The translations under genes and the position numbers were made by a program. A DNA stretch of 64,000 nucleotides from Demequina soli (lineage in GTDB: Bacteria; Actinomycetota; Actinomycetes; Actinomycetales; Demequinaceae). Location of the stretch: positions 421,460-485,459 of the forward strand of contig NZ_BBLZ01000001.1 in assembly GCF_000971195.1 (NCBI RefSeq), read 5' to 3'. Each line of letters opens with the position of its first letter. Within the stretch, counting starts at the first letter, position 1. Of this stretch, positions 45,304 through 58,344 are shown in pieces. Under the pieces are notes generated by a model. That model ran no database searches, was not told where the DNA came from, and saw nothing but the letters and a program-made list of their open reading frames with translations.

Positions 45304-45346
45304 GCGGGCACCCTACCCGCGAGGCCCGCCGGCGCCGGCCGCTCCG

Positions 45347-45394
45347 TACGATGCTGCACGTGCCTCCCTCCCCCGCAGCCGCGGCCGCCTGATG
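45347..45394 (+). promoter_or_regulatory. Promoter and leaderless ten-codon leader ORF before the pseudouridine synthase
   Basis: TACGAT (45347-45352) is followed after 7 nt by GTG at 45360. This opens a ten-codon frame rich in Pro and Ala (V-P-P-S-P then five Ala) whose TGA overlaps the ATG of the next gene (TGATG at 45390-45394). No Shine-Dalgarno sequence is present for the main gene, so translation may depend on coupling. Confidence 0.4.
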
Positions 45395-46339
45395 CCGCTC
45401 CCCTCCCCGCTGCCGCAGCGCCACGGGCTCGACGCGTCGTGGGTGCGCACGCCCGACCACGGACCCGCCGGGCCGCCGCCGTGGACAACGATGCGGGAGT
45501 TCCTGGTGGACCGGCTGCCCGCCCACGCCGAGGTCGAGCGGCGCCTCGCCGCGGGCGAGTTCGTCGGCCAGGACGGACGGGCGTGGACCGGCGACGAGGC
45601 GTACCGGCCGCACACGTTCGTGTGGTTCCACCGCCCGCTCGCACCCGAGGAGCCGGTGCCGTTCCCCCTCGGGATCCTCGACCGCACGGACAACCTCCTG
45701 GTGGTCGACAAGCCCCACTTCATGGCAACCACCCCCCGCGGGGCGCACGTGCGCGAGACGGCGCTCGTCAAGCTCCGGCTCGCGCTCGACCTGCCGGAGC
45801 TCGCTCCCGCGCATCGCCTCGACCGGCTCACCGCGGGGGTGCTGGTGCTCACGACACGCCGCGCGTGCCGCGGCGCGTACGCCGGGGTGTTCCAGTCGCG
45901 TCAGGTGTCCAAGACGTACGAGGCGCTCGCGCCGTTCGACCCGTCCCTCGCGTTCCCCCTGCGCCTGGTGGGGCGGATCGAGAAGCGTCGCGGGAGCCTT
46001 CAGGCGTCGCTGGTGCCCGGGGACCCCAACGCGGAGACGCTGGTCGAGCTGGTGGAGGTGCGCGGGGTCCACGCGCTCTACCGGCTCACGCCGATCACGG
46101 GGAAGACGCACCAGCTGCGGCTGCAGATGGCGGACGCGGGCCTGCCGCTCGTGGGGGACCCGCTCTACCCCCACGTCCTCGCGGACGGCCCGGACGACCT
46201 CGCCTCGCCGCTGCGGCTCGTCGCGCGGCGCCTGCGGTTCACGGACCCGGTCGACGGGGTCGAGCGGGATTACGTCAGCGGCCGCGCGCTCGCGTGGCCC
46301 ACGCCGACCCGCGCGGATGCGCACCGCGCGGGAGCCTGA
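45392..46339 (+). CDS. RluA-family pseudouridine synthase
   Basis: 315 residues. LVVDKPHFMATTP and PAHRLDRLTAGVLVL (catalytic Asp in HRLD) are motif I-II of the RluA family, KTYEALAPF and TPITGKTHQLRLQMA complete the core. An N-terminal extension of about 100 residues contains an S4-like region. It modifies uridines in rRNA or tRNA; the exact target is unknown. It is the last ordinary gene before the cassette region. Confidence 0.85.
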   Translation: MPLPSPLPQRHGLDASWVRTPDHGPAGPPPWTTMREFLVDRLPAHAEVERRLAAGEFVGQDGRAWTGDEAYRPHTFVWFHRPLAPEEPVPFPLGILDRTDNLLVVDKPHFMATTPRGAHVRETALVKLRLALDLPELAPAHRLDRLTAGVLVLTTRRACRGAYAGVFQSRQVSKTYEALAPFDPSLAFPLRLVGRIEKRRGSLQASLVPGDPNAETLVELVEVRGVHALYRLTPITGKTHQLRLQMADAGLPLVGDPLYPHVLADGPDDLASPLRLVARRLRFTDPVDGVERDYVSGRALAWPTPTRADAHRAGA

Positions 46340-46382
46340 AGCCCCACGCGGTCCGGAGCCGTGCGGCCGGGGCCCGAGCACG

Positions 46383-46480
46383 TAGGTTGCTGTGCATGGG
46401 GGAGCCGCGCGATGCCCTCGACCGGCCGCGCGTCACGGCCGACGCCGCGCTGGCGCTCGACAGCCAGGGGCGCGCGTCCC
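46383..46480 (+). pseudogene. Leaderless promoter and truncated gene start at the left edge of the accessory region
   Basis: TAGGTT (46383-46388) ends 7 nt before an ATG (46396). The frame begins MGEPRDALDRPRVTADAALA and is plausible for about 28 codons. It then becomes arginine-rich and antisense to the membrane-protein gene at 46481-46804, which looks like loss of the real continuation. The same 17-nt start, TAGGTTGCTGTGC plus RTGG, recurs at 48288. A remnant of a host gene cut by the accessory region is my inference. Confidence 0.35.
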
Positions 46481-46804
46481 TCAGGCGCCGGACCGGTCGC
46501 CGATCGCGTACGAGAGCACGAACCCGAGCGCGATCACCGCGGCCACCGCGATGGTCACCAACCGTCGAGTCCCGTCGTGAGCGCATCGGGACTCGCGGTG
46601 CGACGTCGAACGAGCGCGCCACTCGTCATGCTGGAGGGGGCCACCCGGCGCGGCCCGTCGCGCTACGTCGGCACCGGCAGATCGCGCGTCACGGATGCCA
46701 TCGCGCACGCCGTAGCGGATCACCCAGTAGAGAACGTACATCGAGATCGCCCACAGGCCACCGTGTACGGTGAAGCAAGGCGCCAGGGTGACATCGCTCG
46801 ACAT
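46481..46804 (-). CDS. Small two-helix membrane protein, unknown
   Basis: 107 residues. LWAISMYVLYWVIRYGVRDG near the N-terminus and LVTIAVAAVIALGFVLSYAI near the C-terminus are hydrophobic helices separated by a basic loop. No family recognised. It starts 11 bp from the divergent gene at 46816. An in-frame start at 46849 is possible but has no hydrophobic or conserved character. Confidence 0.5.
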   Translation of the reverse strand: MSSDVTLAPCFTVHGGLWAISMYVLYWVIRYGVRDGIRDARSAGADVARRAAPGGPLQHDEWRARSTSHRESRCAHDGTRRLVTIAVAAVIALGFVLSYAIGDRSGA

Positions 46805-46815
46805 GGGGGTAGCGG

Positions 46816-47277
46816 ATGTCTGTTCGAACCGATCAGTCGCCCGAAGCACCGCCGACAGCCGTGAGGTTCGAGCGACCGATGGGCGTCGGCATCGGTGTCA
46901 CCGGGGCGATCACGATGGTCGCGCTGTCGATGCTCACACCCAGCGTGGTCCCCGTTCTCGTGATGCCCCTTGTCGCAGCCGCGCTCATCGTGGGAGCCGT
47001 GGCGATGGCAGCGTGGAACCCCACGATCGCGCTGACCGCCGCGGTCAGCGTCGCGATCGCCAACATCCTCGCCTTCGTCGCCCAGGCCGCGATCGGGCTC
47101 TCCGGAGCGCTCATCGACGACGGGACGCTCTCGAATGCCGCCACCACGTGGCTCGGCGTGCTGATCACCCTGGGCACATCGTGGCTCGTCACGAACCTCG
47201 CGGCAGCCTTCCTCGGCGGATGGCTGCTTGCGCGAATCCTTGCGCGCCGCGGATCTCGTGCCGCCGAGACGGCTTAG
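46816..47277 (+). CDS. Four-helix membrane protein, unknown
   Basis: 153 residues with four hydrophobic segments (about residues 25-45, 48-68, 75-100 and 112-142) and a basic C-terminus (ARILARRGSRAAETA). No family recognised. Its stop overlaps the stop of the extended HepT gene from the other strand. It lies just outside the leftmost repeat (R1) and may be the rest of an older cassette or host DNA. Confidence 0.55.
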   Translation: MSVRTDQSPEAPPTAVRFERPMGVGIGVTGAITMVALSMLTPSVVPVLVMPLVAAALIVGAVAMAAWNPTIALTAAVSVAIANILAFVAQAAIGLSGALIDDGTLSNAATTWLGVLITLGTSWLVTNLAAAFLGGWLLARILARRGSRAAETA

Positions 47278-47810
47278 GGCGACCCTGAGCAGGTCTCGCG
47301 GAAGGCGTCGCGGGACGCGCGCATCCAGGTGGCGTGAGGCGACGGCCGAGGCTCAGCAGACGCGGCAGGCGCCCTCTCGGCAGCTCCGGCCGGGCCGGAG
47401 CTGCACGTTGAACCTGAACTCCACCGCATTCCGCAGCCGACCAACCTCACCGCAGACTTCAGACCTCTGACGCCGAGCCACCCTCCACGTGCCGGCGTCG
47501 CCTCAGCCAGCGGTGGCAGATGGTTCTCCACCACATCTCGGATAACGTCGAGGTCGACGCCGAAGTACTGGTGGACGAGGATGTTCCGGAAGCCGCGGAT
47601 CTGGGGCCAGGCGATCTCGGGGTGTGCATCGACCACTTCCGGGGTCAGGTGGTTCGCCGCCTCGCCGATGATCTGGAGGTTGCGCTCGATCGCATCCTCC
47701 GCCGTCCCCACGACGTCGACAGCTCCCGCGTCGAGGAGGGCGACGTAACGACGACACCGGTCGATCGAATCGAGGATGTCCACGATCCGTCGCTCGACGC
47801 CTCGCGTCAC
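47274..47810 (-). CDS. hepT: HepT-like HEPN toxin (RNase), C-terminus extended through a repeat
   Basis: 178 residues from GTG at 47808-47810, overlapping mntA by 4 bp. Residues 1-105 form a HEPN domain with the RX4HXY active site R75, H80, Y82 in FRNILVHQYFG. HepT toxins cleave RNA and are silenced by MntA. The usual length is about 110-140 residues. Here residues about 122-135 are encoded by repeat R1 and the last 43 come from sequence beyond it, so the native end has been replaced. Toxicity of the long form is uncertain. Confidence 0.85.
   Translation of the reverse strand: MTRGVERRIVDILDSIDRCRRYVALLDAGAVDVVGTAEDAIERNLQIIGEAANHLTPEVVDAHPEIAWPQIRGFRNILVHQYFGVDLDVIRDVVENHLPPLAEATPARGGWLGVRGLKSAVRLVGCGMRWSSGSTCSSGPAGAAERAPAASAEPRPSPHATWMRASRDAFRETCSGSP
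47407..47445 (-). repeat. Cassette repeat R1
   Basis: Most distal copy. Consensus on the plus strand is GTTGAACCTGAACTCGACC followed by GCGTTCCGTAGCCGAACAAC; R1 differs at four positions. Read as ychF codons it gives EFRFNV but the stop is lost (CAG). It is embedded in the reading frame of hepT. Confidence 0.85.
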
Positions 47811-48136
47811 AGGACGACCGAATCCTCGACGGCCGACTTAGAGATCGGCCGCTTGAGCAGCTGCTCCGGGAACACATCGATGTCGTCACGGCCGAACAGC
47901 GCCCGGACCTCCTCGAGGAGACCGGAGGCACGCATGAAGACGTTGCCGTCGGCGGGGTCCATGTCCACGAGGATGTCGATGTCGCTGCCCGCGTGCGCCG
48001 TTCCACGCGCGACGGAGCCGAACAATCTTGGACGAGTCGCCCCGTAGCGCGCCAGCAGCGCGTCGAACTCCTCGCGACGCGCGTCGATGAGCCCGCGCAG
48101 CGCGAGCGTCTCGGGCGTCACGTCGACCTCGGACAT
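47807..48136 (-). CDS. mntA: MntA-like minimal nucleotidyltransferase antitoxin
   Basis: 109 residues. LFGSVARGTAHAGSDIDILV (residues 39-57) is the GSxARG...SDxD motif of minimal nucleotidyltransferases, with a third Asp near residue 88. MntA AMPylates the HepT tyrosine next to the HEPN active site and neutralises it. The gene overlaps hepT (antitoxin first), and its ATG is 60 bp from repeat R2. It is one complete cassette with hepT. Confidence 0.88.
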   Translation of the reverse strand: MSEVDVTPETLALRGLIDARREEFDALLARYGATRPRLFGSVARGTAHAGSDIDILVDMDPADGNVFMRASGLLEEVRALFGRDDIDVFPEQLLKRPISKSAVEDSVVL

Positions 48137-48195
48137 AGGCCCAGGATAACGAGGCCCACCGAGACAGGCGAGGACGCTGCTCCTGGCCGCCAGAG

Positions 48196-48252
48196 GTTGA
48201 ACGGGAACTAGACGTTGAACCTGAACTCGACCGCGTTCCGTAGCCGAACAAC
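48196..48252 (-). repeat. Cassette repeat R2 with upstream tandem unit
   Basis: The 39-bp core (48214-48252) is identical to the consensus. It is preceded by GTTGAACGGGAACTAGAC (48196-48213), an 18-bp relative of the core start. In ychF frame the core plus flank spell EFRFNV then TAG. Confidence 0.9.
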
Positions 48253-48300
48253 CACTGAGGTCCTGCACGCAGCTGATCGGCTGCGCGTAGGTTGCTGTGC

Positions 48301-48573
48301 GTGGCAGAGACCGGCGACATCCTCGAGGAGCTCCATGCGACGGCGTCCAAGGCGCTGGCCAGCGGCGGCCGCGATGGCGCGTCCGCGCCAGAACTGGTCG
48401 AACGGCTAGAAGCCCTCGTGTCGGCAGCCTCGGAGGCCGGCCATAGCATCGAAGAGATCGCCGTGGCCGCTCACCTGAGCTACCACCACGTTTGCGCGCT
48501 CGCGGGTGTCGCGCCACCTGAGCCAGATCGGACGTCCGACGGACGTCAGACGTGGCGACTCGACCTCGGCTGA
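48301..48573 (+). CDS. Small helix-turn-helix-like cassette protein
   Basis: 90 residues, helical and acidic. SIEEIAVAAHLSYHHVCALA (about residues 49-68) looks like a helix-turn-helix; the rest is not recognised. Start is the GTG at 48301, 7 nt after the -10 box TAGGTT (48288-48293), so the transcript is probably leaderless. It is one of two cassette genes running against the ychF direction and is followed by its own stem-loop. Confidence 0.65.
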   Translation: MAETGDILEELHATASKALASGGRDGASAPELVERLEALVSAASEAGHSIEEIAVAAHLSYHHVCALAGVAPPEPDRTSDGRQTWRLDLG

Positions 48574-48596
48574 GCGCCCCCCTGCTCGCGGTGACG

Positions 48597-48650
48597 CGCT
48601 GACATATGAGTGCCTGCATACCGCTATGTGCGGGCACTCATGTGTCAGCG
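48597..48650. terminator. Stem-loop closing cassette 2
   Basis: Imperfect inverted repeat CGCTGACATATGAGTGCC / GGGCACTCATGTGTCAGCG, with the remaining centre also partly paired (TGCATA/TATGTG). It lies 23 bp after the small HTH-like gene and before repeat R3. It would stop transcription from entering the convergent VapBC cassette. Confidence 0.65.
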
Positions 48651-48672
48651 AAGCGCCAGGCTCCGCCTAGAC

Positions 48673-48711
48673 GTTGAACCTGAACTCGACCGCGTTCCGT
48701 AGCCGAACAAT
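48673..48711 (-). repeat. Cassette repeat R3
   Basis: Differs from consensus only at the last base (T for C). Preceded by CTAGAC, giving the ychF-type end EFRFNV-TAG. The vapC stop codon begins 2 bp away. Confidence 0.9.
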
Positions 48712-48712
48712 G

Positions 48713-49111
48713 TCAGTCCGACGGCGCGATCACGTCAAGGCCCACGGCTCGGGCCGCGTCGCCGAGCCTATGGTCGTAGGTGAGAATTGCAGTGGCATTC
48801 AGCCTCATCGCCGCCTCGAGATGCAGCGCGTCGATCGTCCGGAGGTACGGCATCGGGAGGAAGCCAGCGCCGCGATACACGGCACGGTCGAGAGCAGCAA
48901 GCGCAACACCATCGAGGACGCGCGTCACGTCGGCCTGGTCAAGCCCCTCGCGAACCGCCACGCGACGCAGCTCGGTCTCGAGAAGGTCACTGGAGACGAG
49001 CGCCGAGGGAGTGCCGTCGAGCCAGTCCAATAGCGCCTCGCTCTCGGCCTGCTCTATGAGCAACGCGCCGAGCGCCGAGGTGTCGACGTAGACGACCGTG
49101 CGGGCAGTCAC
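48713..49111 (-). CDS. vapC: VapC-like PIN-domain toxin
   Basis: 132 residues from GTG, overlapping vapB by 4 bp. PIN acidic residues: D10 (VYVDTSALGALL), E45/E47 (SSDLLETELRR), D in LRTIDALHLEAA near 93, and D in LTYDHRLGDAA near 112. PIN toxins are Mg-dependent RNases that cut tRNA or rRNA. With the upstream antitoxin gene it forms cassette 3. Confidence 0.9.
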   Translation of the reverse strand: MTARTVVYVDTSALGALLIEQAESEALLDWLDGTPSALVSSDLLETELRRVAVREGLDQADVTRVLDGVALAALDRAVYRGAGFLPMPYLRTIDALHLEAAMRLNATAILTYDHRLGDAARAVGLDVIAPSD

Positions 49112-49389
49112 AGTCGGTCGCCACGGAGGTCGTCGAGGGTCGCTGCAAGGCCCCGCCGCGAGGCCTTGCGTCGGATGCCCAGCGCCGCCCAGCCGCCCTC
49201 GCGCCGAGCCGGACGAGTGATCGGCAGCGGCGGAACCAGCACATCGAGCGGCACAAGACGCCCCACCGGCACGCCACCATTGGTCAGCACGAACGAATGG
49301 CCCTCGCTCACCGCCCGGAGCACACGACCAGACTCGTTGCGCAGCTCACGCTGCGACAGACTCTCGATGGCACTCTCGGACGTCTCCAC
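49108..49389 (-). CDS. vapB: VapB/Phd-type antitoxin
   Basis: 93 residues. SQRELRNESGRVLRAVSEGH followed by FVLTNGGVPVGRLVPL is the Phd/YefM DNA-binding fold; the C-terminal part would wrap VapC. It should neutralise VapC and repress the operon. The ATG is 97 bp from repeat R4; the interval is too short for more than a promoter and operator. Confidence 0.88.
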   Translation of the reverse strand: METSESAIESLSQRELRNESGRVLRAVSEGHSFVLTNGGVPVGRLVPLDVLVPPLPITRPARREGGWAALGIRRKASRRGLAATLDDLRGDRL

Positions 49390-49485
49390 ACTTCACCGTA
49401 GCACGCGTGCTACACGAGCGACCAGGGGCCACCGCCGACCACGTCAACTCCGGACGCTCAAGCCATGGGCTGAGCGTCAGCTACA

Positions 49486-49524
49486 CATTGAACCTGAACT
49501 CGACCACGTTCCGTAGCCGAACAA
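49486..49524 (-). repeat. Cassette repeat R4
   Basis: Two differences from consensus (A at the first base, A in GACCACG). With its CTACAC flank it is identical to the resident ychF end over 29 bp, so its ychF-derived part came from this host's gene. Confidence 0.9.
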
Positions 49525-49569
49525 CGTGTGGGGGTCATCGATGAGCGACGCACGCCCCACCGTGGCCGC

Positions 49570-50805
49570 TCAGCGCCCGGCCTCTACCGCGGACGTCTGC
49601 TGCTCGTGGACCTCACTGACGGACTGCGACGGACTTGGCCGCCCGCTCGCCAGCCACCATGCCACGACCACGACGACGAGAGCGGAGAGTCCGACGAGCA
49701 ACGCCGAGGCTTGTGCACCCAAGTGTGCGATCAGCGCGCCGGCCGCCGCGGTGACCGCCGCTGAGCCGATGTTGTAGCTCGTGTTCACCCACGTGGTCGC
49801 GCTGTTCTGGCGATCGGGTGGCGCGATGCGAGGAGCGAGGAGGTACGCCACCACCATCGCCGGCGAGAGGAGCATGCCCGCGACGGACGCTGGGCTCCCG
49901 GCGAACGCGAGGCAGGCGGTAGCGCCTGCAAGGCCCACCGCAAGGACACCCAGGTGCGCTGGCGGTCCCCCCTTCACTCGCATCGTGCCGTAGGCGAGCC
50001 CGCCGAGCGCGCTTCCTACAGCGAACACCGCAAGCACGAGTCCCGCGACGGCAGGTCCGCTGAGCGCGGTGGCGGCGGGCACGTAGATGGTGACGAACCC
50101 CGCCAGACCGCCGGCGACCAGGGGGAACACGAGCAGAGGGACGAATCCACGCGCGCGCAAGGGAGAACGGCCGCGACCCGCTTCCCGGCTCTGCTCCGAC
50201 CCCATGGGGGCCACAGCACCGGACCGCGCGAAGACCACGCCTCCGATCACGATCAGGGCTGCCGGAACCAGCAGCACAGCGCCTGGCTCAAGCTTCCACA
50301 GGAGCGCGCCGGCGATGGCGGGACTCGCGAGATAGAACACCTCCTCGACCGTGGCGTCCAGGCTCAGCGCAGTCTTGAGATCTTCGTGTTCCGGCACGAG
50401 CGTGGCCCAGGCGACACGCATGGTCGGGCCAAGCGGTGGTGCGACAGCGCCCGCGAGGCCGGCCAGCACCACGACACCCGCCGCGGGAGCACCCAGGAGG
50501 GATGCAAGCGCGAGGCAGGCCAGCACGGACCCGAACAGCGCCGACATGGCGGTCAGCATCGGCCTCGGCCCAAAACGATCGATCAAGGCAGCGCGCCCCG
50601 GCGCGAGCATCCCTGCGCCCGCGCCGTACAGACCGAGCGCAGCGCCGGCCACCGCGATCGATCCCGCGGCGGCATGGGTCACATAGAAGAGGGGTAGATA
50701 CACGAACGTGTACGCGATACGCCCGATCGAGGATGTTGCGAAGGCGCGAACAGCCTGGGGGTACGCGAGCACGCGTCGATATGCGTGGACATCGAACGAA
50801 GACAA
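49570..50805 (-). CDS. MFS transporter
   Basis: 411 residues with twelve hydrophobic segments, in two groups of six. GLYGAGAGMLAPGRAALIDRFG after the second helix resembles the MFS loop 2-3 motif. It resembles drug- or metabolite-efflux proteins, but the substrate is unknown. The apparent start is TTG at 50803-50805 with AGGAA upstream. It is the single gene of the largest cassette (about 1.6 kb). Its stop lies 45 bp from R4. Confidence 0.85.
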   Translation of the reverse strand: MSSFDVHAYRRVLAYPQAVRAFATSSIGRIAYTFVYLPLFYVTHAAAGSIAVAGAALGLYGAGAGMLAPGRAALIDRFGPRPMLTAMSALFGSVLACLALASLLGAPAAGVVVLAGLAGAVAPPLGPTMRVAWATLVPEHEDLKTALSLDATVEEVFYLASPAIAGALLWKLEPGAVLLVPAALIVIGGVVFARSGAVAPMGSEQSREAGRGRSPLRARGFVPLLVFPLVAGGLAGFVTIYVPAATALSGPAVAGLVLAVFAVGSALGGLAYGTMRVKGGPPAHLGVLAVGLAGATACLAFAGSPASVAGMLLSPAMVVAYLLAPRIAPPDRQNSATTWVNTSYNIGSAAVTAAAGALIAHLGAQASALLVGLSALVVVVVAWWLASGRPSPSQSVSEVHEQQTSAVEAGR

Positions 50806-51102
50806 GAGAGGTTCCTAGCGGTTGCGGTCGGCCACTTGGGCATGACTGAGACGCCCGCCACCGTCACGCGGCGGCGGGCCGACCACTCCTAGGGCAACCG
50901 AATAGGCACGTGCGAAAGAGCACAGCCCGAACTGCGCCCGCAAGCCGCAGCGGCGATGCGGCGACGACGCACCGCGTGGCAGGCGCGCGCTCGCCGCTGG
51001 CGGGATGTCCGTCGACGCGGGAGCTCAAGGCGTGTCGCGCGCATCGAGGACCCGCGGACGCGTGCGCGACCGAGGTGCCTTAGCCAGCGACGATGCTCAG
51101 AC
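50806..51102. other. Non-coding part of cassette 4
   Basis: 297 bp between the MFS start codon and R5. No credible reading frame. GCCCGCC (50853-50859) and GGCGGGC (50873-50879) form a small hairpin about 50 bp upstream of the MFS gene; a promoter or operator role is possible. The codon-like third-position G+C bias of the neighbours is absent. Confidence 0.5.
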
Positions 51103-51141
51103 GTTGAACCTGAACTCGACCGCGTTACGTAGCCGAGCAAC
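51103..51141 (-). repeat. Cassette repeat R5
   Basis: Two differences from consensus (A in GTTACG, G in GAGCAAC). The CTCAGAC flank gives EFRFNV followed by TGA, a different stop codon from the TAG used in most copies. Confidence 0.9.
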
Positions 51142-51342
51142 CTCAAGGTCTCGACGCCGGGAAGCCGACGGCACCGCGCACCGATCCCTGTCATGCCTCA
51201 TCGTGCCGACCACCTCGAGCGGCGGCTCGCTTCCGCCCGCATGCGCCCGCGCGCGAAGCATCGGTGACGTTGCGACACGCCGCCTGCCCGGGGCCTTCCT
51301 CGGGTCGGCACGGGTCGCTGCCATCATGGGCCGATGGCGCTG
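51142..51342. other. Leader region of cassette 5
   Basis: About 200 bp between R5 and the cassette-5 gene with no recognisable gene or strong hairpin. A five-codon frame (ATG at 51326, M-G-R-W-R) ends in TGA that overlaps the chosen start codon (TGATG), but no -10 box is seen at the right distance. Confidence 0.35.
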
Positions 51343-51858
51343 ATGACCAGTTACTTCATTGCACCGTCAGCGACCGCGGCGGCGGCAGTGATCGATCACG
51401 ACGGCGGACCGTCAGCGCTGGGCGCACGTGCAGTGAAACCGCGGCGCGGGTTCCTTCGCCGCAAGCCCGCACCCGCGCTGCCGGACTCGCACGCGCAACC
51501 GTTCCCCACCGTCGACGGTCGGGGCGTCGAGCCTGTCGTGCAGATGGCGGAAGTCGAGGCCCTGCTCACCGGACGCGCCTCCGACGACCTGATCGCCGAA
51601 GACTCCATCGGGCAGGTCATCGCCGACCGTGGCAACGGCGAGCGGCTCGTCGTGAAGCTGACAGATGCGCTGTCGGGCGCGCTTGCGAATGCGACCGACG
51701 ACGACCTCAGGGAGATCGCGCGGCCCTGGGCGGCCACTGAGGAGTTCTGGGGCGAAGGTGACCCAGACGACCTTGCCGCGCTCCTGCAGAGCTTGGCGGG
51801 CCTTGCCCGCCGGGCCCGCGAGAACGGGGATTCCCTCTACTGCTGGTTGTCGCTGTAG
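51343..51858 (+). CDS. Cassette protein of unknown function
   Basis: 171 residues. The N-terminal MTSYFIAPSATAAAAVIDHD and the C-terminal ATEEFWGEGDPDDLAALLQS then LYCWLSL recall uncharacterised streptomycete proteins, but I have no family name. No signal peptide or membrane helix. An ATG at 51334 would add three residues. It runs against the ychF direction. Confidence 0.6.
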   Translation: MTSYFIAPSATAAAAVIDHDGGPSALGARAVKPRRGFLRRKPAPALPDSHAQPFPTVDGRGVEPVVQMAEVEALLTGRASDDLIAEDSIGQVIADRGNGERLVVKLTDALSGALANATDDDLREIARPWAATEEFWGEGDPDDLAALLQSLAGLARRARENGDSLYCWLSL

Positions 51859-52033
51859 CGGAACTCACACGTGGCGCGTGCGGCACGATGCTCCCGCAAG
51901 CCCGTGTTCATCGCTTCCCCGAGCCCGACGTGTCCTTCTCACCCCGCCGCCGCGGACGCTCCTGTCCGACCGCCTCGCTGGGAGCAGGCGCTGAAGGCAG
52001 CCCGCTCGCCTCGAGTCAGAACCGGAACTACAC

Positions 52034-52072
52034 GTTGAACCTGAGCTCGACCGCGTTCCGTAGCCGAACAAC
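52034..52072 (-). repeat. Cassette repeat R6
   Basis: One difference from consensus (G in CTGAGCT), which changes EFRFNV to ELRFNV in the ychF reading; the stop TAG is intact. It is preceded by GGAACTACAC, part of the upstream tandem unit. Confidence 0.9.
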
Positions 52073-52122
52073 CTCAGCCGCGAATCACCGCGCATCGGCG
52101 ACGTACACACCATGATCGGCTA

Positions 52123-52908
52123 TCAACGCCGCCAGACATATGGCGTGGTGGTGGAGACGCGTACGAGTCCCGATCGCTCAAGGATGGGTCGGGAGTACTC
52201 GGTGGAGTCGGAGTGGATCAGTGTCTTCCCCGAGGCGAGGGCCGATCGTGCCCGTGCGGCCGTCAGCGCGCGGTAGATCCCCTTGCCCCGCCATTCCTCG
52301 ACAGTCGCGCCTCCCCAGATACCGGCGAATTGTGTTCCGACAACAGGTTCGAGCCGTCCGGCGCTCACGACCTTGCCATCGAGCTCCGCGATCCAGAGTT
52401 CCATGCCATCGTCCCTGGCAAGGCGCTCAAGGATCGCATCCGCGTACGACTCGCTCACCTCGTCGCCAAACACGCGATCCTGCATCGCGCACATCTCGCG
52501 GACATCGGCCTCCGCCGTGACCGTCCGGAGCACCACGCCCGTCGGCACGTCCACATCGGCGACGAGCCGCTGGGTCTCCCCAATCATGATCGACTCGGGC
52601 TCTTGGGGAACGAAGCCGTGCGCAATCAACGTGTCGTGAAGCCCGGGCGCGCGGTCGTGGCCGCGGGCCTTCCACTCGACGCTCCGAATCGACGGATCGG
52701 ACTCGTAGAACGTACGTGCTGCGGCGACCAGGCGCACGATGCGCCGCTCGTCCGCGCCGCCCAGGTCGCGATAGGTGACGAAGCCTCGCCCGCCGGCGAA
52801 CTCGACCAAGCGCAACGGACCAAGCAAGGTCACCGCGACGGCGCTCGGAGTCTCTGCCGCTGAGCGGAGCTGTTGGTCGTACGCATTCAGCAACGCTGTC
52901 GTGTTCAT
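52123..52908 (-). CDS. GNAT family N-acetyltransferase (cassette)
   Basis: 261 residues. A mostly helical N-terminal half (NTTALLNAYDQQLRSAAETP) is followed by a second GNAT fold with GIWGGATVEEWRGKGIYRAL, where the acetyl-CoA loop reads RGKGIY, and a C-terminal SRPILERSGLVRVSTTTPYV. The arrangement resembles two-domain GNATs. Substrate unknown. The ATG at 52906-52908 lies 29 bp from R7; the frame stays open through R7 but the part upstream is not conserved. Confidence 0.8.
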   Translation of the reverse strand: MNTTALLNAYDQQLRSAAETPSAVAVTLLGPLRLVEFAGGRGFVTYRDLGGADERRIVRLVAAARTFYESDPSIRSVEWKARGHDRAPGLHDTLIAHGFVPQEPESIMIGETQRLVADVDVPTGVVLRTVTAEADVREMCAMQDRVFGDEVSESYADAILERLARDDGMELWIAELDGKVVSAGRLEPVVGTQFAGIWGGATVEEWRGKGIYRALTAARARSALASGKTLIHSDSTEYSRPILERSGLVRVSTTTPYVWRR

Positions 52909-52936
52909 CGACGCCACCATAGCCTCTTGCTCAGAC

Positions 52937-52975
52937 GTTAAATCTGAACTCCACGGCGCTCCGTAGCGGAGCAAC
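52937..52975 (-). repeat. Cassette repeat R7 (most diverged)
   Basis: Seven differences from consensus, yet the ychF reading is still EFRFNV (GAG TTC AGA TTT AAC GTC TGA): nearly all changes in the coding part are synonymous. This favours descent from another organism's ychF rather than random decay. Confidence 0.85.
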
Positions 52976-53023
52976 CTCTCGGCAAGCGGAACCCCCAGCC
53001 CTCCCGCTAGCGTGACGTGCGCA

Positions 53024-53452
53024 CTACGACAGGTCCAAGCCGACCCGTGGTGCCGCAGGCTTGACCCTGAGCCCGGGTCCCCCGCCCACCGTGCGGAGTT
53101 GCCGGCGACCGGCGAGCCGAGGACGGCGTTGAACGGTCCAGCGTCCCGCAACGAGATCCACGAGCCAGTTGCGACCCTCGTCCGTGTCGAGCCAGTCCCC
53201 TCTGAAATCGGCTAGCTCCGAGGAGCGCCATCCGCGCCCGCGAACCTCTACCCATATGAGCAACGCATCCTCGACAAAGAGGAAGACTTCGACATCCGTG
53301 CCAACCGCGCGGAAATGCAACGCAGGCATGGTCCGCGCGCCAGTGGCCGGCATCTCGCGAGCATCGATCACGACCTCCACCCCGAAGGCCGCCATCGCAC
53401 GCTCAAGGCGGCACCGAAGCCCGGCGATCACATCGGCATCTCGGGAATTCAT
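53024..53452 (-). CDS. Cassette protein of unknown function
   Basis: 142 residues, alpha/beta composition: an N-terminal helix, then strand-rich VEVFLFVEDALLIWVEVRGR, then FRGDWLDTDEGRNWLVDLVA. The C-terminal 35 residues are basic and probably disordered. No recognised family. It is a one-gene cassette whose stop lies 48 bp from R7. Confidence 0.6.
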   Translation of the reverse strand: MNSRDADVIAGLRCRLERAMAAFGVEVVIDAREMPATGARTMPALHFRAVGTDVEVFLFVEDALLIWVEVRGRGWRSSELADFRGDWLDTDEGRNWLVDLVAGRWTVQRRPRLAGRRQLRTVGGGPGLRVKPAAPRVGLDLS

Positions 53453-53610
53453 AGGCGGATCGTACTTGCGGACACGAAGCGCGCGACGCGCTCAGGCCGC
53501 GCCGACGCGCCGCGGCCTCACCCGCGCGCCGCAACGGCGTTCCACGCGGGCCACGATCACGGCATCGCCTCGTCGAATTCCGCGAGTGAGGAGCCGCTCA
53601 CACCCCAGAG

Positions 53611-53667
53611 GTTGAACCGGTACTACACATTGAACCTGAACTCGACCACGTTCCGTAGCCGAGCAAC
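53611..53667 (-). repeat. Cassette repeat R8 with upstream tandem unit
   Basis: Core 53629-53667 has three differences from consensus. An 18-bp upstream unit, GTTGAACCGGTACTACAC, precedes it. The first 23 bp of the core and the CTACAC flank are identical to the resident ychF end. Confidence 0.9.
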
Positions 53668-53684
53668 GTCTGAGCGCGAGCGGC

Positions 53685-54005
53685 TCAGACGACCTGGAGT
53701 GGCGCGATCGCCGCCAATTGTTCGCGTAGGGCACGGCGCTCAAGCCGCAGCTCGTAGTGCGACTGCAGGTTCATCCAGAACTCCGCCGTGGTGCCGAAGT
53801 ATGCGCTCAGGCGTACCGCCGTGTCGGCAGTGATCCCGCGCTTGCCGTGGACGATCTCATTGATGCGTCGCGGCGGCACACCGATGGCGATCGCGAGCTT
53901 GTTCTGCGTGATCCCGAATCCCTCGATGAAGTCCTCCATGAGGACCTCGCCCGGATGGATCGGCTGAATCAGGCCGTCGTCAGTGGTAGTCGACGAGCTC
54001 GACAT
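53685..54005 (-). CDS. higA: HigA-like XRE antitoxin
   Basis: 106 residues from the second of two adjacent ATGs (54003-54005; the other is 54006-54008). IHPGEVLMEDFIEGFGITQN and LAIAIGVPPRRINEIVHGKR form the helix-turn-helix of the HigA/VapI family; TAEFWMNLQSHYELRL is the dimerisation end. It should neutralise HigB and repress the operon. It overlaps the end of higB by about 25 bp, with the toxin gene first, as usual for higBA. Confidence 0.92.
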   Translation of the reverse strand: MSSSSTTTDDGLIQPIHPGEVLMEDFIEGFGITQNKLAIAIGVPPRRINEIVHGKRGITADTAVRLSAYFGTTAEFWMNLQSHYELRLERRALREQLAAIAPLQVV

Positions 54006-54261
54006 CATCCGCACCTCCGTCCTTCCATCGAAAGCAGATTCTCCATTGGTCATTGACACGGATGGAGTGCTGACCCGCGCGATCGCCCTTGAGAAGTTCA
54101 AGACGGTTCCCTGGCGGGATCCGAAGGTCGTCGACCTCGGCTGCAGCATGGAGCGCCTCGAGCTTCCGGAGCGCGGAACGCTGGATCCGACGATCGATGC
54201 CCTTCACGAACCGCTCGGCCCAGATCCGCTCAGCCTTCTTGTCACTGAAGGATCTGATCAC
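53980..54261 (-). CDS. higB: HigB-like RelE-superfamily mRNA interferase toxin
   Basis: 93 residues from GTG. MIRSFSDKKAERIWAERF at the N-terminus and GQHSIRVNDQWRICFRWKDG in the second half are HigB signatures (the last gives the catalytic Arg/Tyr-like face). It cleaves mRNA on the ribosome. TACGAT on the minus strand ends 6 nt before the GTG, so the transcript is leaderless. An operator-like inverted repeat lies just upstream. Confidence 0.92.
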   Translation of the reverse strand: MIRSFSDKKAERIWAERFVKGIDRRIQRSALRKLEALHAAAEVDDLRIPPGNRLELLKGDRAGQHSIRVNDQWRICFRWKDGGADDVELVDYH

Positions 54262-54272
54262 ACGAGCATCGT

Positions 54273-54289
54273 ATAACGGAGAGCGTTAT
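54273..54289. promoter_or_regulatory. higBA operator-like inverted repeat
   Basis: ATAACG (54273-54278), spacer GAGAG, CGTTAT (54284-54289). It overlaps the promoter region immediately upstream of the TACGAT -10 of higB. HigA-type antitoxins bind such short palindromes, so autoregulation is likely. Confidence 0.6.
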
Positions 54290-54300
54290 TACCGCTAGAC

Positions 54301-54339
54301 GTTAAACCTGAACTCGACCACATTCCGTCGCCGAACAAC
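54301..54339 (-). repeat. Cassette repeat R9 (adjacent to the newest cassette)
   Basis: Four differences from consensus. The ychF reading is VEFRFNV then TAG, with TTT instead of TTC for one Phe. It closes the cassette that lies directly next to ychF. Confidence 0.9.
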
Positions 54340-54372
54340 CTTTGGGTGTCCACGCCTAGGGAACTCGCTGAC

Positions 54373-55104
54373 CTACAGTCCGTCCGCGTCCACGACCCGT
54401 TCGCAAAGCTCGCGGACGATCTCGACTGCCTGCACGCGCACAGGCAAGTCTCCGATGGCCTGCAGGTAGTCGTGGGCCTCGGCGTCGAGCGTCGAAACCG
54501 CTCCGATTTGGTTCAGTGTGACGTTGCCCTCGGCAAGTGCAACCACTAAACGCAGCGCCCCGGCGAGTCTTGGGTCCTCGTTCGGAAGGACCTGAACGAC
54601 CTCGCCCAGTTCCTCGGATGTCAGACCAGCAGCAGCCGCAGCCATGGCTGCGACAAGTGCCGCTCGAACCTGCACCGGGGCTCGCAGCGTTGCGCGGGCC
54701 AGCAATGAAGCATGCGCCTCCGTAGCCCTGCGCGACTCCTCTGCCAGGTCCCGAGCAGAGACAGGCTTGGCCCCGTCAGCGAGCCACTTCGCCTGGCGCA
54801 TCGTGCGCGGCGAGTCGGGAAGAACAAACGAGTTCGCACCCGTGATCGAAGCGAGCAACAGTCCCGCTTGCGAACGCGCCGCCGGAGGACAGCACTCGTC
54901 GCACGCCATGTCAACCAAGTAGGGCACTACGACAGGGCTCACCTCATAGACCGTGCCCTGATGCCAGACCGTTCCCCACAGTTCGAACCATGCGTCACTA
55001 TCGCCGCCCCTGGCTGAGAGCAACAGCTGAGGAACTTCCGTCGCGGGCCCGTATGCGCCCTGGATATCGCCCCAGTTCAAGGCTTCGAGCCTCCCGATCT
55101 CCAT
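54373..55104 (-). CDS. HEAT-repeat-like cassette protein
   Basis: 243 residues, all helical. It begins MEIGRLEALNWGDIQGAYGP and then WHQGTVYEVSPVVVPYLVDM, the opening of a widespread but uncharacterised family of HEAT-like actinobacterial proteins. Helical pairs continue to the end. Such folds bind proteins, and an immunity or regulatory role is only inference. Start ATG at 55102-55104, 55 bp from R10. It is the cassette next to ychF. Confidence 0.7.
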   Translation of the reverse strand: MEIGRLEALNWGDIQGAYGPATEVPQLLLSARGGDSDAWFELWGTVWHQGTVYEVSPVVVPYLVDMACDECCPPAARSQAGLLLASITGANSFVLPDSPRTMRQAKWLADGAKPVSARDLAEESRRATEAHASLLARATLRAPVQVRAALVAAMAAAAAGLTSEELGEVVQVLPNEDPRLAGALRLVVALAEGNVTLNQIGAVSTLDAEAHDYLQAIGDLPVRVQAVEIVRELCERVVDADGL

Positions 55105-55158
55105 CGGCACAGCGTCTCACGCCTGCAGGCGAACGCCGCCTAGCTGTGGGAGTCGGAG

Positions 55159-55199
55159 GTTGAACGGGAACTACACATTGAACCTGAACTCGACCACGT
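55159..55199 (-). repeat. Entry site R10: the native 3' end of ychF
   Basis: The last 23 bp of the shared region (55177-55199), the stop codon 55171-55173, and the upstream tandem unit GTTGAACGGGAACTACAC (55159-55176) make up the site. Beyond 55199 the sequence continues as ychF coding sequence and no longer matches the repeats. The crossover must therefore lie inside the shared stretch. Confidence 0.85.
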
Positions 55200-56265
55200 C
55201 GCCGTCCTGCATGACGTAGTCCTTGCCCTCGATGCGGACCTTGCCCTTGGACTTCGCCTCGGCCATCGAGCCGGTCTCGAGCAGGTCGTGGAAGTGGACC
55301 ACCTCGGCCTTGATGAAGCCACGCTCGAAATCGGTGTGGATCACGCCGGCGGCCTGCGGGGCGGTCCAGCCCTTGTGGATCGTCCAGGCACGCGCCTCCT
55401 TGGGGCCCGCGGTGAGGTACGTCTGGAGGCCGAGCGTGTCGAAGCCGACGCGCGCGAGCTGATCCAGACCCGACTCGTCCTGGCCGTTCTCGGCGAGCAT
55501 CTCGCGCGCCTCCTCCTCGGTCAGCTCGACCAGCTCCGCCTCGAACTTCGCGTCGAGGAAGATCGCCTCGGCGGGCGCGACCTGCGCCGCGAGGGCCTCG
55601 CGCTTGGAGGCGTCGGCGAGGACCGCATCGTCCACGTTGAAGACGTAGATGAACGGCTTGGCGGTGAGGAGGTTGAGCTCCTTCACGTCCGCGAGGTCGA
55701 GCTTGGCCGCGGCGGCGCCGGCGCTGAGCGCCTTGCCCGACTCGAGGATCTCCTTGGCGGTGGTGACCGCGGCGAGGAAGTTGGGGTCGGCCTTCTTGGC
55801 GCGCACCTCCTTCTCGAGGCGCGGGATCGCCTTCTCGACGGTCTGGAGGTCCGCGAGGATGAGCTCGGTGTTGATGGTCTCGATGTCGCTCGCCGCGTCG
55901 ACCTTGCCGTCGACGTGGATGACGTCGGGGTCCTCGAAGCCGCGGGTCACCTGGCAGATCGCGTCCGCCTCGCGGATGTTCGCGAGGAACGCGTTGCCCA
56001 GGCCCTCGCCCTCGGACGCGCCCTTGACGATGCCCGCGATGTCGACGAACGACACCGTCGCGGGGACCTCGCGCTCGGAGCCGAAGACCTCGGCGAGCTG
56101 GCCGAGGCGCGCGTCCGGCAGCGGGACGACGCCGACGTTGGGCTCGATGGTCGCGAACGGGTAGTTCGCGGCGAGCACCTCGGCGCGGGTGAGGGCGTTG
56201 AACAGGGTCGACTTGCCGACGTTCGGGAGACCGACGATTCCGATGGTAAGAGCCACGGGCGTCAA
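55171..56265 (-). CDS. ychF: Redox-regulated ATPase YchF (OLA1 family)
   Basis: 364 residues. GIVGLPNVGKSTLFNALTRA (P-loop, residues 9-28), FVDIAGIVKGASEGEGLGNA (G3 region), a coiled-coil insertion, then the TGS domain ending GKDYVMQDGDVVEFRFNV. YchF/OLA1 hydrolyses ATP rather than GTP and binds ribosomes. The last eight codons are part of the cassette entry site and are repeated across the next 8 kb. The resident gene is intact. Confidence 0.97.
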   Translation of the reverse strand: MTPVALTIGIVGLPNVGKSTLFNALTRAEVLAANYPFATIEPNVGVVPLPDARLGQLAEVFGSEREVPATVSFVDIAGIVKGASEGEGLGNAFLANIREADAICQVTRGFEDPDVIHVDGKVDAASDIETINTELILADLQTVEKAIPRLEKEVRAKKADPNFLAAVTTAKEILESGKALSAGAAAAKLDLADVKELNLLTAKPFIYVFNVDDAVLADASKREALAAQVAPAEAIFLDAKFEAELVELTEEEAREMLAENGQDESGLDQLARVGFDTLGLQTYLTAGPKEARAWTIHKGWTAPQAAGVIHTDFERGFIKAEVVHFHDLLETGSMAEAKSKGKVRIEGKDYVMQDGDVVEFRFNV

Positions 56266-56297
56266 GTCTACCGGCGGCGGGTCCCGCCTCCCGCCCG

Positions 56298-56335
56298 GGG
56301 ACGATGCGCGGGGACGGTGACACGCGCATCGTCCC
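56298..56335. repeat. Inverted pair of decamers upstream of ychF
   Basis: GGGACGATGCGCG (56298-56310) and its reverse complement CGCGCATCGTCCC (56323-56335), 12 bp apart. Unlike the pair at 25301-25333, this one lies between divergent genes (ychF and a small protein gene). A terminator role is therefore unlikely here; an operator or DNA-structure role is possible. Confidence 0.7.
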
Positions 56336-56351
56336 GACGTACGGTGGCGGG

Positions 56352-56543
56352 ATGAGCTTCGAGGAGCTGTTCAACCAGGGCGTCGCGCACGCGCGCGAGC
56401 AGAAGGACTGGGACAAGGTGCGTCCAGCGACGGAGCTGATCGCCGAGGCCCCGGACGGGGACCACGACCCGATCGCCGGCCTGGTCATCCCGACGCCCGA
56501 CATGATCGAGCCGTTCCGGCTGAAGCGCCCCGAGGACGCCTGA
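56352..56543 (+). CDS. Small conserved hypothetical protein
   Basis: 63 residues, MSFEELFNQGVAHAREQKDW at the N-terminus, then LVIPTPDMIEPFRLKRPEDA at the end. Acidic and soluble. No family name recognised. TACGGT (56340-56345) ends 6 nt before the ATG, so the mRNA is probably leaderless. Confidence 0.65.
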   Translation: MSFEELFNQGVAHAREQKDWDKVRPATELIAEAPDGDHDPIAGLVIPTPDMIEPFRLKRPEDA

Positions 56544-56560
56544 CCCCGCCGGCTTGCACG

Positions 56561-56596
56561 AGGGCCCCGCCCTCCCTCGCGGGAGACCGGGGCCCT
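56561..56596. terminator. Bidirectional terminator after the small gene and the peptide ATPase
   Basis: AGGGCCCCG (56561-56569) and CGGGGCCCT (56588-56596), with a further pairable centre (CCCTCCC/GGGAG). It sits between converging stop codons at 56543 and 56608. Confidence 0.7.
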
Positions 56597-56607
56597 GTGG
56601 CTGACGC

Positions 56608-58344
56608 TTACGCGCCGAGCGGGATGTTCGCGCCGGGGATGGCGTCGAGCAGCTTCTGCGTGTACTCGGTCTGGGCGTTCGAGAAGATGCTCTCGACCGA
56701 GCCGTGCTCGACGATCTTGCCCTTCTCCATCACGGCCACGTCGTCGGCGACGACGCGCACGACCGCGAGGTCGTGGGTGATGAAGAGGTAGGACAGCCCC
56801 AGCTCCTCCTGCAGGTCCGCGAGGAGCTGCAGGATCTGCGCCTGGACCAGCACGTCGAGGGCGGAGACCGCCTCGTCGAGGATCACCACGTCGGGCTTGA
56901 GCGCGAGGGCACGCGCGATGGCGATGCGCTGGCGCTGACCGCCCGAGAGCTCGTTCGGGTAGCGGGACAGCACGGTGCGCGGGAGGGCGACCTCGTCGAT
57001 GACCTCGTTGACGCGCTGCTCGCGCGACTTGCGGTCGCCGATCTTGTGGACGTCGAGGGGCTCCTGGATGATCGAGCCGATCGACTGCATCGGGTCGAGC
57101 GAGCCGTACGGGTCCTGGAACACCGGCTGCATGCGGCGGCGGTGCTCGAGCATCTCCTTGCCGGTGAGGACGGTGGCGTCCTTGCCGGCGACGAAGATCT
57201 CGCCCTCGGTCGCGGTCTCGAGGCCGAGCACCATCTTGGCGACGGTGGACTTGCCGGAGCCGGACTCGCCCACGAGCGCCATGGTGGTGCCACGCGGGAC
57301 CGTGAAGTTGACCTTGTCCACCGCGGTGAACGGCTCCGAGCGGAAGCTCCCGCGACGGATCGAGAACACCTTGGTGAGGTCCTTGACCTCGATGGCCGGG
57401 GTGCCCGCGTGGTCCGCGTGCTCCACCACGTCGTGGCGGTGGGCAGCGGCCGCCACCAGGTCGATCTCGTCGCCCTGCGGCGCCTCCGCGACCTCGACCC
57501 GCGACGACTTGAGGCGCTGCGACGCGAGGCTCGGGGCCGCCGCGATGAGGCGCTTCGTGTACGGGTGCTGCGGGTTCTGCAGCAGCTCGAGGCTCGGGCC
57601 GGACTCGACGATCTTGCCCTGGTACATGACGATGACCTTGGACGCGCGCTCGGCGGCGAGGCCCAGGTCGTGCGTGATGAGCAGCAGCGCCGTGTCCTTC
57701 TCACGCGTGAGCGACTCGAGGTGGTCGAGGATCACGCGCTGGACGGTGACGTCGAGCGCCGACGTGGGCTCGTCGGCGATGAGCAGCTTGGGGTCCGCGG
57801 CCAGGCCGATGCCGATGAGCACGCGCTGGCGCATGCCGCCGGAGAACTGGTGCGGGTACTGCTTCACGCGGCGCTCGGCGTCGGCCAGGCCGGCCTCCTT
57901 GAGCACCTCGACGACGCGCTTGTCGGCGTCCTTCTTGTTCTTGGCCATGCCGTTCGCGAGGACGGCCTCGCGCACCTGGAAGCCCACGTTCCACACGGGG
58001 TTCAGGTTGGACATCGGATCCTGCGGGACGTAGCCGATCTCGCGGCCACGGATGCCCACCATCTCCGACTTCGAGACCTTGGTGAGGTCCTTGCCGTTGA
58101 ACATGACCGTGCCGCCGGTGATGCGGCCGTTGCTCGGCAGCAGGTCCATGAGGCCGGTGGCCGTGGTGGACTTGCCCGAGCCGGACTCGCCGACGATCGC
58201 GACGGTCTCGCCCGGGAAGATGTCGAACGAGACGCCCTTCACCGCCTGGACGAAGCCGTTGCCGGTCTGGAAGCCGATCTGCAGGTCCTGGACGGAGACG
58301 AGCGGCTCGTGGGTGTCGGTCACGGGGGTGGACTCCTGGGTCAT
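56608..58344 (-). CDS. Peptide ABC transporter, fused double ATPase (DppD-DppF type)
   Basis: 578 residues with two complete ABC modules. First: GESGSGKSTTATGLMDLLPS, signature FSGGMRQRVLIGIGLA, Walker B LLIADEPTSALD. Second: GESGSGKSTVAKMVLGLE, signature LSGGQRQRIAIARALA, VVILDEAVSALD. Both Walker motifs are intact except that the second D-E-A replaces D-E-P. The oligopeptide-binding C-terminal stretches (NPQHPYTKRLIAAAP) follow each module. It overlaps dppC by 4 bp. Confidence 0.93.
   Translation of the reverse strand: MTQESTPVTDTHEPLVSVQDLQIGFQTGNGFVQAVKGVSFDIFPGETVAIVGESGSGKSTTATGLMDLLPSNGRITGGTVMFNGKDLTKVSKSEMVGIRGREIGYVPQDPMSNLNPVWNVGFQVREAVLANGMAKNKKDADKRVVEVLKEAGLADAERRVKQYPHQFSGGMRQRVLIGIGLAADPKLLIADEPTSALDVTVQRVILDHLESLTREKDTALLLITHDLGLAAERASKVIVMYQGKIVESGPSLELLQNPQHPYTKRLIAAAPSLASQRLKSSRVEVAEAPQGDEIDLVAAAAHRHDVVEHADHAGTPAIEVKDLTKVFSIRRGSFRSEPFTAVDKVNFTVPRGTTMALVGESGSGKSTVAKMVLGLETATEGEIFVAGKDATVLTGKEMLEHRRRMQPVFQDPYGSLDPMQSIGSIIQEPLDVHKIGDRKSREQRVNEVIDEVALPRTVLSRYPNELSGGQRQRIAIARALALKPDVVILDEAVSALDVLVQAQILQLLADLQEELGLSYLFITHDLAVVRVVADDVAVMEKGKIVEHGSVESIFSNAQTEYTQKLLDAIPGANIPLGA

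Follow-up and report, generated by a model that had tools for sequence, protein, structure and literature searches.

Gene-cassette capture has its textbook example in integrons, which are tied to one family of tyrosine recombinases; the attC sites of integron cassettes carry the boxes RYYYAAC (5′) and GTTRRRY (3′), and integron cassette arrays without an integrase are known as CALINs. SCC/ECC elements are described, in excerpts of PMC6222049, as using Ccr serine recombinases, the 3′ end of rlmH as insertion site, att sites of ~50-bp direct repeats with inverted repeats, and very variable cargo; parts of the SCC/ECC literature also report composite islands and contexts without ccr genes. An excerpt of PMC8637289 places a pneumococcal prophage attB beside ychF. 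Here we analyze a cassette array behind the ychF gene of Demequina soli, in a 64,000-nucleotide stretch of DNA (positions 421,460–485,459 of contig NZ_BBLZ01000001.1, assembly GCF_000971195.1) that we call the window. We consider it very probable that phage-type site-specific recombination through large serine recombinases (LSRs) has lined up non-autonomous mobile cassettes at the 3′ end of ychF to form this array. Our literature search, which covered open-licence PMC articles, found no description of such ychF cassette arrays.

The ychF gene (55171–56265, minus strand) encodes the redox-regulated ATPase YchF (TIGR00092, 435.9 bits against a cut-off of 279.2), and its 3′ end is the attB of the array. 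Ten direct copies of one repeat lie in the window in a single orientation, 459–1616 bp apart from copy to copy: the core copy at the ychF 3′ end itself (55171–55215) and, likewise on the minus strand, repeats 1 to 9 at 54295–54339, 53623–53667, 52931–52975 (the most diverged), 52028–52072, 51097–51141, 49481–49525, 48667–48711, 48208–48252 and 47401–47445 (the distal end of the array). The initial annotation, made from the letters of this DNA, had seen nine same-orientation repeats separating nine units of one gene or one gene pair each, with seven units in the ychF direction, and our analysis agrees: each unit is one gene or one gene pair, and its main gene runs in the ychF direction in seven of the nine. 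The repeats are real, but their conserved length is ~45 nt rather than the 39 bp given there. Its division of the repeat into a ychF 3′ end and a cassette-only remainder is borne out, ~29 nt matching the end of ychF and the other 16–17 nt being common to the repeats only. The repeat is a hybrid LSR attachment site, P|B′, whose P half (GTTATTCGGCTACGGAACGTGG) comes from the mobile unit and whose B′ half is the ychF 3′ end; the core copy in ychF is B|B′.

The arrangement recurs behind ychF in a set of 44 Demequina genomes, in which the genome of the window is G000 (3.0 Mb, 99.28% complete; G and L numbers are our handles for genomes and loci). A strict repeat pattern is present in 27 of the 44. 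In 40 genomes ychF is complete or nearly so (the gene is broken in G011, and G013, G035 and G040 have no close match), and from these 40 we took up to 20 kb downstream of ychF, less at contig ends, for a total of 714,886 nt. At E < 1e-3 a repeat profile made 118 plus-strand matches in this DNA, the ychF genes’ own ends included, and 0 minus-strand matches; it made 0 matches at that threshold in either of two controls, the reversed sequence and a shuffle by blocks of three, and at E < 10 there are seven weaker minus-strand matches. Besides the ychF ends there are 78 repeats (E < 1e-3), every one at most 8 kb from ychF, in 31 of the 40 genomes (32 of 41 entries, as G043 spans two contigs), and they bound units of 0.3–3.7 kb, as many as nine of them in a row. 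No repeat was found behind ychF in G009, G012, G023, G026, G032, G033, G037, G038 and G041. The conserved neighbor past the array, in the window a plus-strand gene (45257–46339) that we take from its sequence to be RluA-like, was found in 29 of the 41 entries, always past the last repeat (it touches the last bases of that repeat in G015), and in the repeat-free G032 it lies 474 bp from ychF. The repeat counted in G036 has no P half and is a simple duplicate of the ychF end; a partial second ychF 3′ end of 31 codons (65% identity) lies 2.4 kb behind ychF in that genome (L098, 1449–1541).

Arrays of this kind extend well outside the genus. A P-side pattern scan of named genomes returned 68 loci, in Demequina and in Brevibacterium, Arthrobacter, Kocuria, Brachybacterium, Nesterenkonia, Corynebacterium, Microbacterium, Cryobacterium, Acidipropionibacterium and others. 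ychF is present in all 48 non-Demequina genomes checked, and 40 non-Demequina regions downstream of it hold 85 repeats, all oriented like ychF and none reversed (E < 1e-2), with at least one repeat in 36 of the 40 (the other four are L271, L282, L286 and L292). Copies cluster downstream of ychF with variable genes between them, as the initial annotation had expected of a search across actinobacteria and in keeping with its choice of the ychF 3′ end as entry site. One type of cassette start behind the repeat, the HigA type (a cluster of 18), is found in Demequina, Microbacterium, another member of the Microbacteriaceae, Brachybacterium and Brevibacterium. Several types of P half occur in other genera (repeats of L257–L296), namely CTACGTGCCGG, TTCTGTGACGG and TTCGGCTACGG, which would fit arrays that depend on LSRs of different specificity.

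The same site is occupied by elements that carry an LSR. A viral scan for the ychF end returned six contigs. On viral contigs L113 and L117 the repeat lies 22–25 nt from the start of a 454/455-aa LSR, the two enzymes being 65% identical, and L117 also carries terminase, portal and head genes and is therefore phage DNA. On this phage contig a tyrosine integrase and a serine integrase flank the ychF-type site (L117, 1386–4007). A search of 396 genomes of the order with the L113 LSR (E ≤ 1e-80) gave four matches, G242, G282, G255 and G320; the repeat is at most 45 nt from the LSR start in the first three and, by locus, within 45 nt of it in L113, L117, L218, L219 and L220. The elements of G242 (~8.3 kb) and G282 (~11.8 kb) lie directly behind ychF, and the G255 contig stops before reaching it. 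When viral sequences were scanned with the L113 LSR, its own contig and L217 were the only matches.

A second query came from Brevibacterium casei (L185), where a canonical repeat lies 20 nt from the start of a 514-aa LSR. The search of the order with this LSR (E ≤ 1e-30) matched 24 of the 396 genomes: seven full-length matches (46–66% identity by tblastn) all lie 0.04–14.4 kb downstream of a ychF, an eighth close relative, in G098, is a broken gene on a short contig without ychF, and from the 16 more distant or partial matches G242, G255 and G282 were examined further. In phage and plasmid collections the same query found distant LSRs only (312 and 136 records, each below 60% identity, and 23–31% among the matches listed). 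Five loci (L134, L147, L156, L157 and L172), one of Brachybacterium, one of Brevibacterium, two of Acidipropionibacterium and one of Kocuria, have a shortened copy of the L185-type LSR whose start is likewise 20 nt away from the repeat. All five have about the first 57 codons followed by an unrelated frame; the shortened gene is a deletion derivative that has spread, perhaps an intermediate between element and cassette. Within Demequina, LSR homologs occur in 19 of the 44 genomes (E ≤ 1e-3; best identity 46% over the matched part), and the repeat was not found within 1.5 kb on either side of them, except at a remnant in the G007 array. This remnant (L085), ~3.1 kb behind ychF, is the N-terminal part of an LSR resembling the ychF clade, with an apparently decayed site alongside.

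The LSRs of L113, L117 and L185 have resolvase and recombinase domains (PF00239 and PF07508), and three ychF-site LSRs scored 32–68 bits against the CcrA, CcrB and CcrC models, whose cut-offs are 700–900. In a tree of 34 LSR rows the 16 from ychF sites all group in a single clade (support 100/99, a result that none of 500 shuffles equaled), which speaks for cohesion and not for frequency because the row set was collected with queries from that clade; L296 was omitted as split.

The LSR elements also locate the point of exchange. The last ychF codons are replaced in all 10 elements with a readable ychF end (the B. casei LSR is on another contig), VVEFRFNV giving way to VVEFRSGLTSGGKK, VVEFRHGITSAAQGKK and similar endings, and such replacement is seen in 10 of the 40 ychF genes from the named genomes versus 0 of 39 classified Demequina genes. 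At the far end of these elements is a P|B′ site with the true ychF end as B′. When the two element halves are joined, the rebuilt attP consists of inverted repeats centered on GTGG|TGGA, with 21 matches of 27 in G321, 21 in G289, 20 in B. casei, 15 in G243, 14 in G282 and 10 in G242, against shuffled means of 6.3–7.1 (6.8 for the three elements with 20 or 21 matches); at most 7 of 5000 shuffles are as good in five of the six elements. This layout is the architecture described for serine integrases, whose attP has half-sites of ~25 bp around a central dinucleotide (PMC3783163). An exchange at GAGTTC was considered and rejected, as the LSR elements center their inverted repeats on GTGG|TGGA.

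Cassette repeats carry the same half-site as the LSR elements. The P half of the B. casei LSR is the nearest one (at most 5 mismatches of 22) for 67 of 79 Demequina repeats, another LSR-linked P half is nearest for 4, and 8 are unassigned; for 85 repeats of other genera the counts are 53, 12 and 20, and none of 39 ychF ends comes within 5 mismatches of an LSR P half. In repeats that share one flanking cassette, most of columns 3–16 track the left cassette (61 pairs), with little linkage at 17–29, and columns 36, 39, 42, 44 and 45 track the right cassette (252 pairs); this switch of sides is an independent sign of exchange within the core. An outer P′ motif stands just after the restored ychF end in 19 of 78 cassettes, 18 of them at one offset (0.19 expected), and with this fixed offset cassette sites may be modified attP sites with a built-in ychF end. 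An imperfect 69-bp palindrome across circular junctions, was at first considered attC-like; that reading was rejected, since P and P′ arms account for it better.

The cargo turns over and is shared. We sorted 78 excised Demequina cassettes into 48 clusters, nine of which (39 cassettes) are common to at least two genomes, and the shared types stand at differing array positions and beside differing neighbors from genome to genome; an aldo/keto reductase cassette of 1859–1891 bp occurs in eight genomes. Cassette DNA is closer than ychF DNA in 39 of 87 same-cluster pairs, for example 97.8% over 633 bp versus 84.8%. The five nearest relatives by ychF (G019, G024, G042, G006 and G008; 99–96% aa identity) hold 2, 2, 5, 1 and 4 closed cassettes, respectively, and have in common with G000 only the types of cassettes 2 and 9. 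Close relatives with the same genes in the same order, which the initial annotation had named as evidence against its reading, are thus not what we see at the species level, where the one to five cassettes are mostly different. From 73 mechanically picked frames, covering 44 of the 78 Demequina cassettes, 49 were scanned; 26 have a Pfam match (E ≤ 0.001) and 23 have none. The matches include HEPN, zeta-like kinase, AbiH, TIR/SEFIR (bSEFIR in PADLOC), SelO, glyoxalase, methyltransferases and regulators, and none of the 49 frames contains a recombinase or LSR domain. Defense-like or integron-like cargo includes bSEFIR/TIR, AbiH and an AraC-type protein with a Cass2 domain (L072, 6417–7730; L084, 17454–18614; L088, 17777–18736).

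In the mechanism we propose, autonomous phage or island elements with an LSR insert at this one point, replacing the last ychF codons. The 22-nt P half-site of a mobile unit, which matches the half-site beside the LSR gene of autonomous elements, would recombine by exchange within GTGG|TSGA. Cassettes bring a copy of the ychF end, so that the gene stays intact and the docking site is remade, and units would pile up. Neither PF07508 nor PF00239 has a match in the window genome, and the cassettes of the window have no recombinase gene of their own; with no serine recombinase detectable there, its cassettes would need moving in trans by visiting elements, and a helper recombinase must have come from outside or have since been lost. 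The LSR itself would then move the small cassettes, which would circulate as circles and reuse the remade site. On balance we favor the broader view that the ychF 3′ end is a shared actinobacterial docking station, at which recombinase-free cassettes would ride passing serine integrases, restore ychF, build arrays free of a resident recombinase and cross genera.

Several observations weigh against this account. LSR action on the cassettes is deduced from sequence, and the reaction itself is a prediction. To our knowledge, P|B′ × ychF is not among known LSR reactions. Most cassettes offer an attR-like P|B′ site, so standard pairing does not explain their insertion: serine integrases recombine only attP × attB when no directionality factor is present, according to an excerpt of PMC3783163. 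PF07508 candidates are absent from array genomes G001, G003, G024, G027, G029, G030 and G031, and arrays in genomes lacking an LSR candidate may be old and immobile. L221 (G320) and viral L217, with LSRs of 42–45% identity, lack a ychF site, and the LSR start of A. echini (L271) is not followed by the repeat. In G242 the rebuilt attP shows little symmetry (10 of 27, a value reached by 595 of 5000 shuffles), and the B. casei attP joins sequence of two contigs, so that its two ends may stem from different elements. Repeat columns 30, 31, 33, 44 and 45 are linked to both sides, and the pairs are not independent. For 48 of the 87 same-cluster pairs cassette similarity falls below that of ychF, at the extreme 74.0% versus 94.0%. 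Finally, the named genomes of other genera were selected for holding the repeat, so they document anchoring at ychF and not prevalence.

Four other explanations share parts of this evidence. The arrays might have been made by LSRs and now be dead, as remnants of separate elements that decayed in place and are shared through homologous recombination or inheritance. Such decay would suit the lack of an LSR in the window genome and seven other array genomes, as well as the shortened LSR genes at five loci of four genera and the LSR remnant in the G007 array. We nevertheless think it improbable, given that one cassette type stands at varied positions and beside varied neighbors in many species and in other genera, that cassettes outdo ychF in similarity in the 39 pairs above, that linkage switches sides within the core, and that the scanned Demequina cassette frames are free of LSR domains. 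If the ychF end had simply been duplicated in tandem and genes brought in by homologous recombination, repeats that contain that end and the plain second copy in G036 would be accounted for; this reading is hardly credible, as the P half is not found in ychF, the repeats keep a single orientation and LSR elements use the same point.

The two remaining explanations invoke tyrosine recombinases. An odd integron, its cassettes moved by a since-lost enzyme of the IntI type, is suggested by the layout, the cassette size, the toxin–antitoxin cargo, the entry site at one end and one cassette protein that matches the ‘integron-associated’ Pfam family Cass2. The initial annotation had called the array integron-like in layout, and its layout as a cassette array holds; kinship with integrons does not, the fitting recombinase being an LSR and not IntI. 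It had also reported that the repeat lacks the attC box order and that no intI is present, and both observations stand. None of 164 repeats has RYYYAAC followed by GTTRRRY on either strand, and with 30-nt flanks the boxes occur in 3 and 3 of 164 on the two strands versus 0.6 and 0.6 for random windows. None of the six tyrosine-recombinase frames examined in the window genome reaches the integron-integrase cut-off (TIGR02249, best 121.0 of 265, from a frame that passes as XerD), and a tyrosine recombinase was found in 0 of 12,482 frames of 149 array-region entries (six queries, in a set without a positive control). With serine recombinases occupying the site, an integron origin appears very unlikely. 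Slimmer still is the chance that host XerC/XerD act on the repeats as they do on dif or pdif modules. Array genomes G002, G003, G014, G030 and G043 have only two tyrosine recombinases (XerC/XerD score class, E ≤ 1e-3), which would favor that idea; the half-site beside the LSR genes is the repeat’s own half-site, and the repeat, judged by eye, is presumably unlike the 28-bp dif site. A 329-aa integrase of the window genome (L012) was rejected as the array enzyme, since its matches in 9 of the 44 genomes do not track with arrays. Two adjacent unusual genes of that genome (L013, 431–2922; 336 and 494 aa) are also of note, the second weakly matching tyrosine recombinases and the first matching none.

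The nine cassettes of the window, all on the minus strand except cassettes 5 and 8, carry varied genes. Proteins without a family match are encoded by cassette 1 (245 aa, 54373–55110), cassette 3 (142 aa, 53024–53452), cassette 5 (174 aa, 51334–51858, plus strand) and cassette 8 (93 aa, 48292–48573, plus strand), and cassettes 4 and 6 encode a GNAT acetyltransferase (52123–52911) and an MFS transporter (49570–50805), respectively. Cassette 2 (53685–54261) pairs a HigA antitoxin (53685–54005; TIGR02607, 105.5 bits against a cut-off of 47.7) with a 93-aa partner (53980–54261) that has no NCBIfam match and is taken for HigB. In HigA-type cassettes here (54262–54294) and elsewhere, an operator-like palindrome, CGTTATTnACG..CGTTAT, was seen by eye directly after the repeat, as if the cassette brought its own promoter region. 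Cassette 7 (48713–49389) pairs a PIN-domain toxin with an antitoxin resembling Phd/YefM, whose score stays under the curated cut-off. Cassette 9 (47274–48139) holds a HepT-like (HEPN) and nucleotidyltransferase pair, and its HepT-like frame (47274–47810) has no stop ahead of repeat 9 and runs through it into the flank; the earlier statement that gene ends sit beside repeats therefore does not extend to this last gene. A G+C-rich hairpin beyond repeat 9, read by eye, is a candidate terminator of ychF itself. Rfam gave nothing above its gathering score over 45000–57000 of the window.

If LSR-driven docking is correct, an integron economy of small units, a fixed dock, a growing row and accessory or defense-type cargo would be run in Actinobacteria through serine-integrase chemistry with phage or island helpers. 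It would bear on the site rules of LSRs, raising the question of whether a P|B′ site can serve as donor. A natural family of LSRs whose matching attB lies in a conserved gene and whose P halves come in several types would be useful for genome engineering, and ychF arrays are a place to seek new accessory and toxin–antitoxin genes.

The closest kin of the ychF arrays are SCC/ECC elements by mechanism and integrase-less integron arrays by layout. With SCC/ECC they have in common LSRs, insertion at the 3′ end of a housekeeping gene, tandem units, att sites and variable cargo. They differ in that the ychF-site LSRs fall outside the Ccr models, the site is ychF and not rlmH, the hosts are Actinobacteria, and no recombinase was found in the window genome; the units, of 0.3–3.7 kb with few genes and up to nine in a row, also contrast with the 32-kb element that an excerpt of PMC6222049 describes. 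Phage serine integrases of the A118/LI type resemble the ychF-site enzymes in their pseudo-palindromic attP, half-sites of ~25 bp and PF00239 plus PF07508 integrase, whereas the phage and island elements at ychF share their site with arrays of small recombinase-free cassettes. Like integrons and CALINs, the ychF array has small units, one repeat orientation, entry at a fixed end and toxin–antitoxin cargo; unlike them, it has no IntI that we found, no attC box order and no dedicated attI, its dock is the 3′ end of a protein gene, and its enzyme type is serine and not tyrosine. The ychF system lacks a defining trait of SCC/ECC and one of integrons, and we therefore describe it as a cassette array of integron-like layout whose sites are those of phage-type serine integrases.

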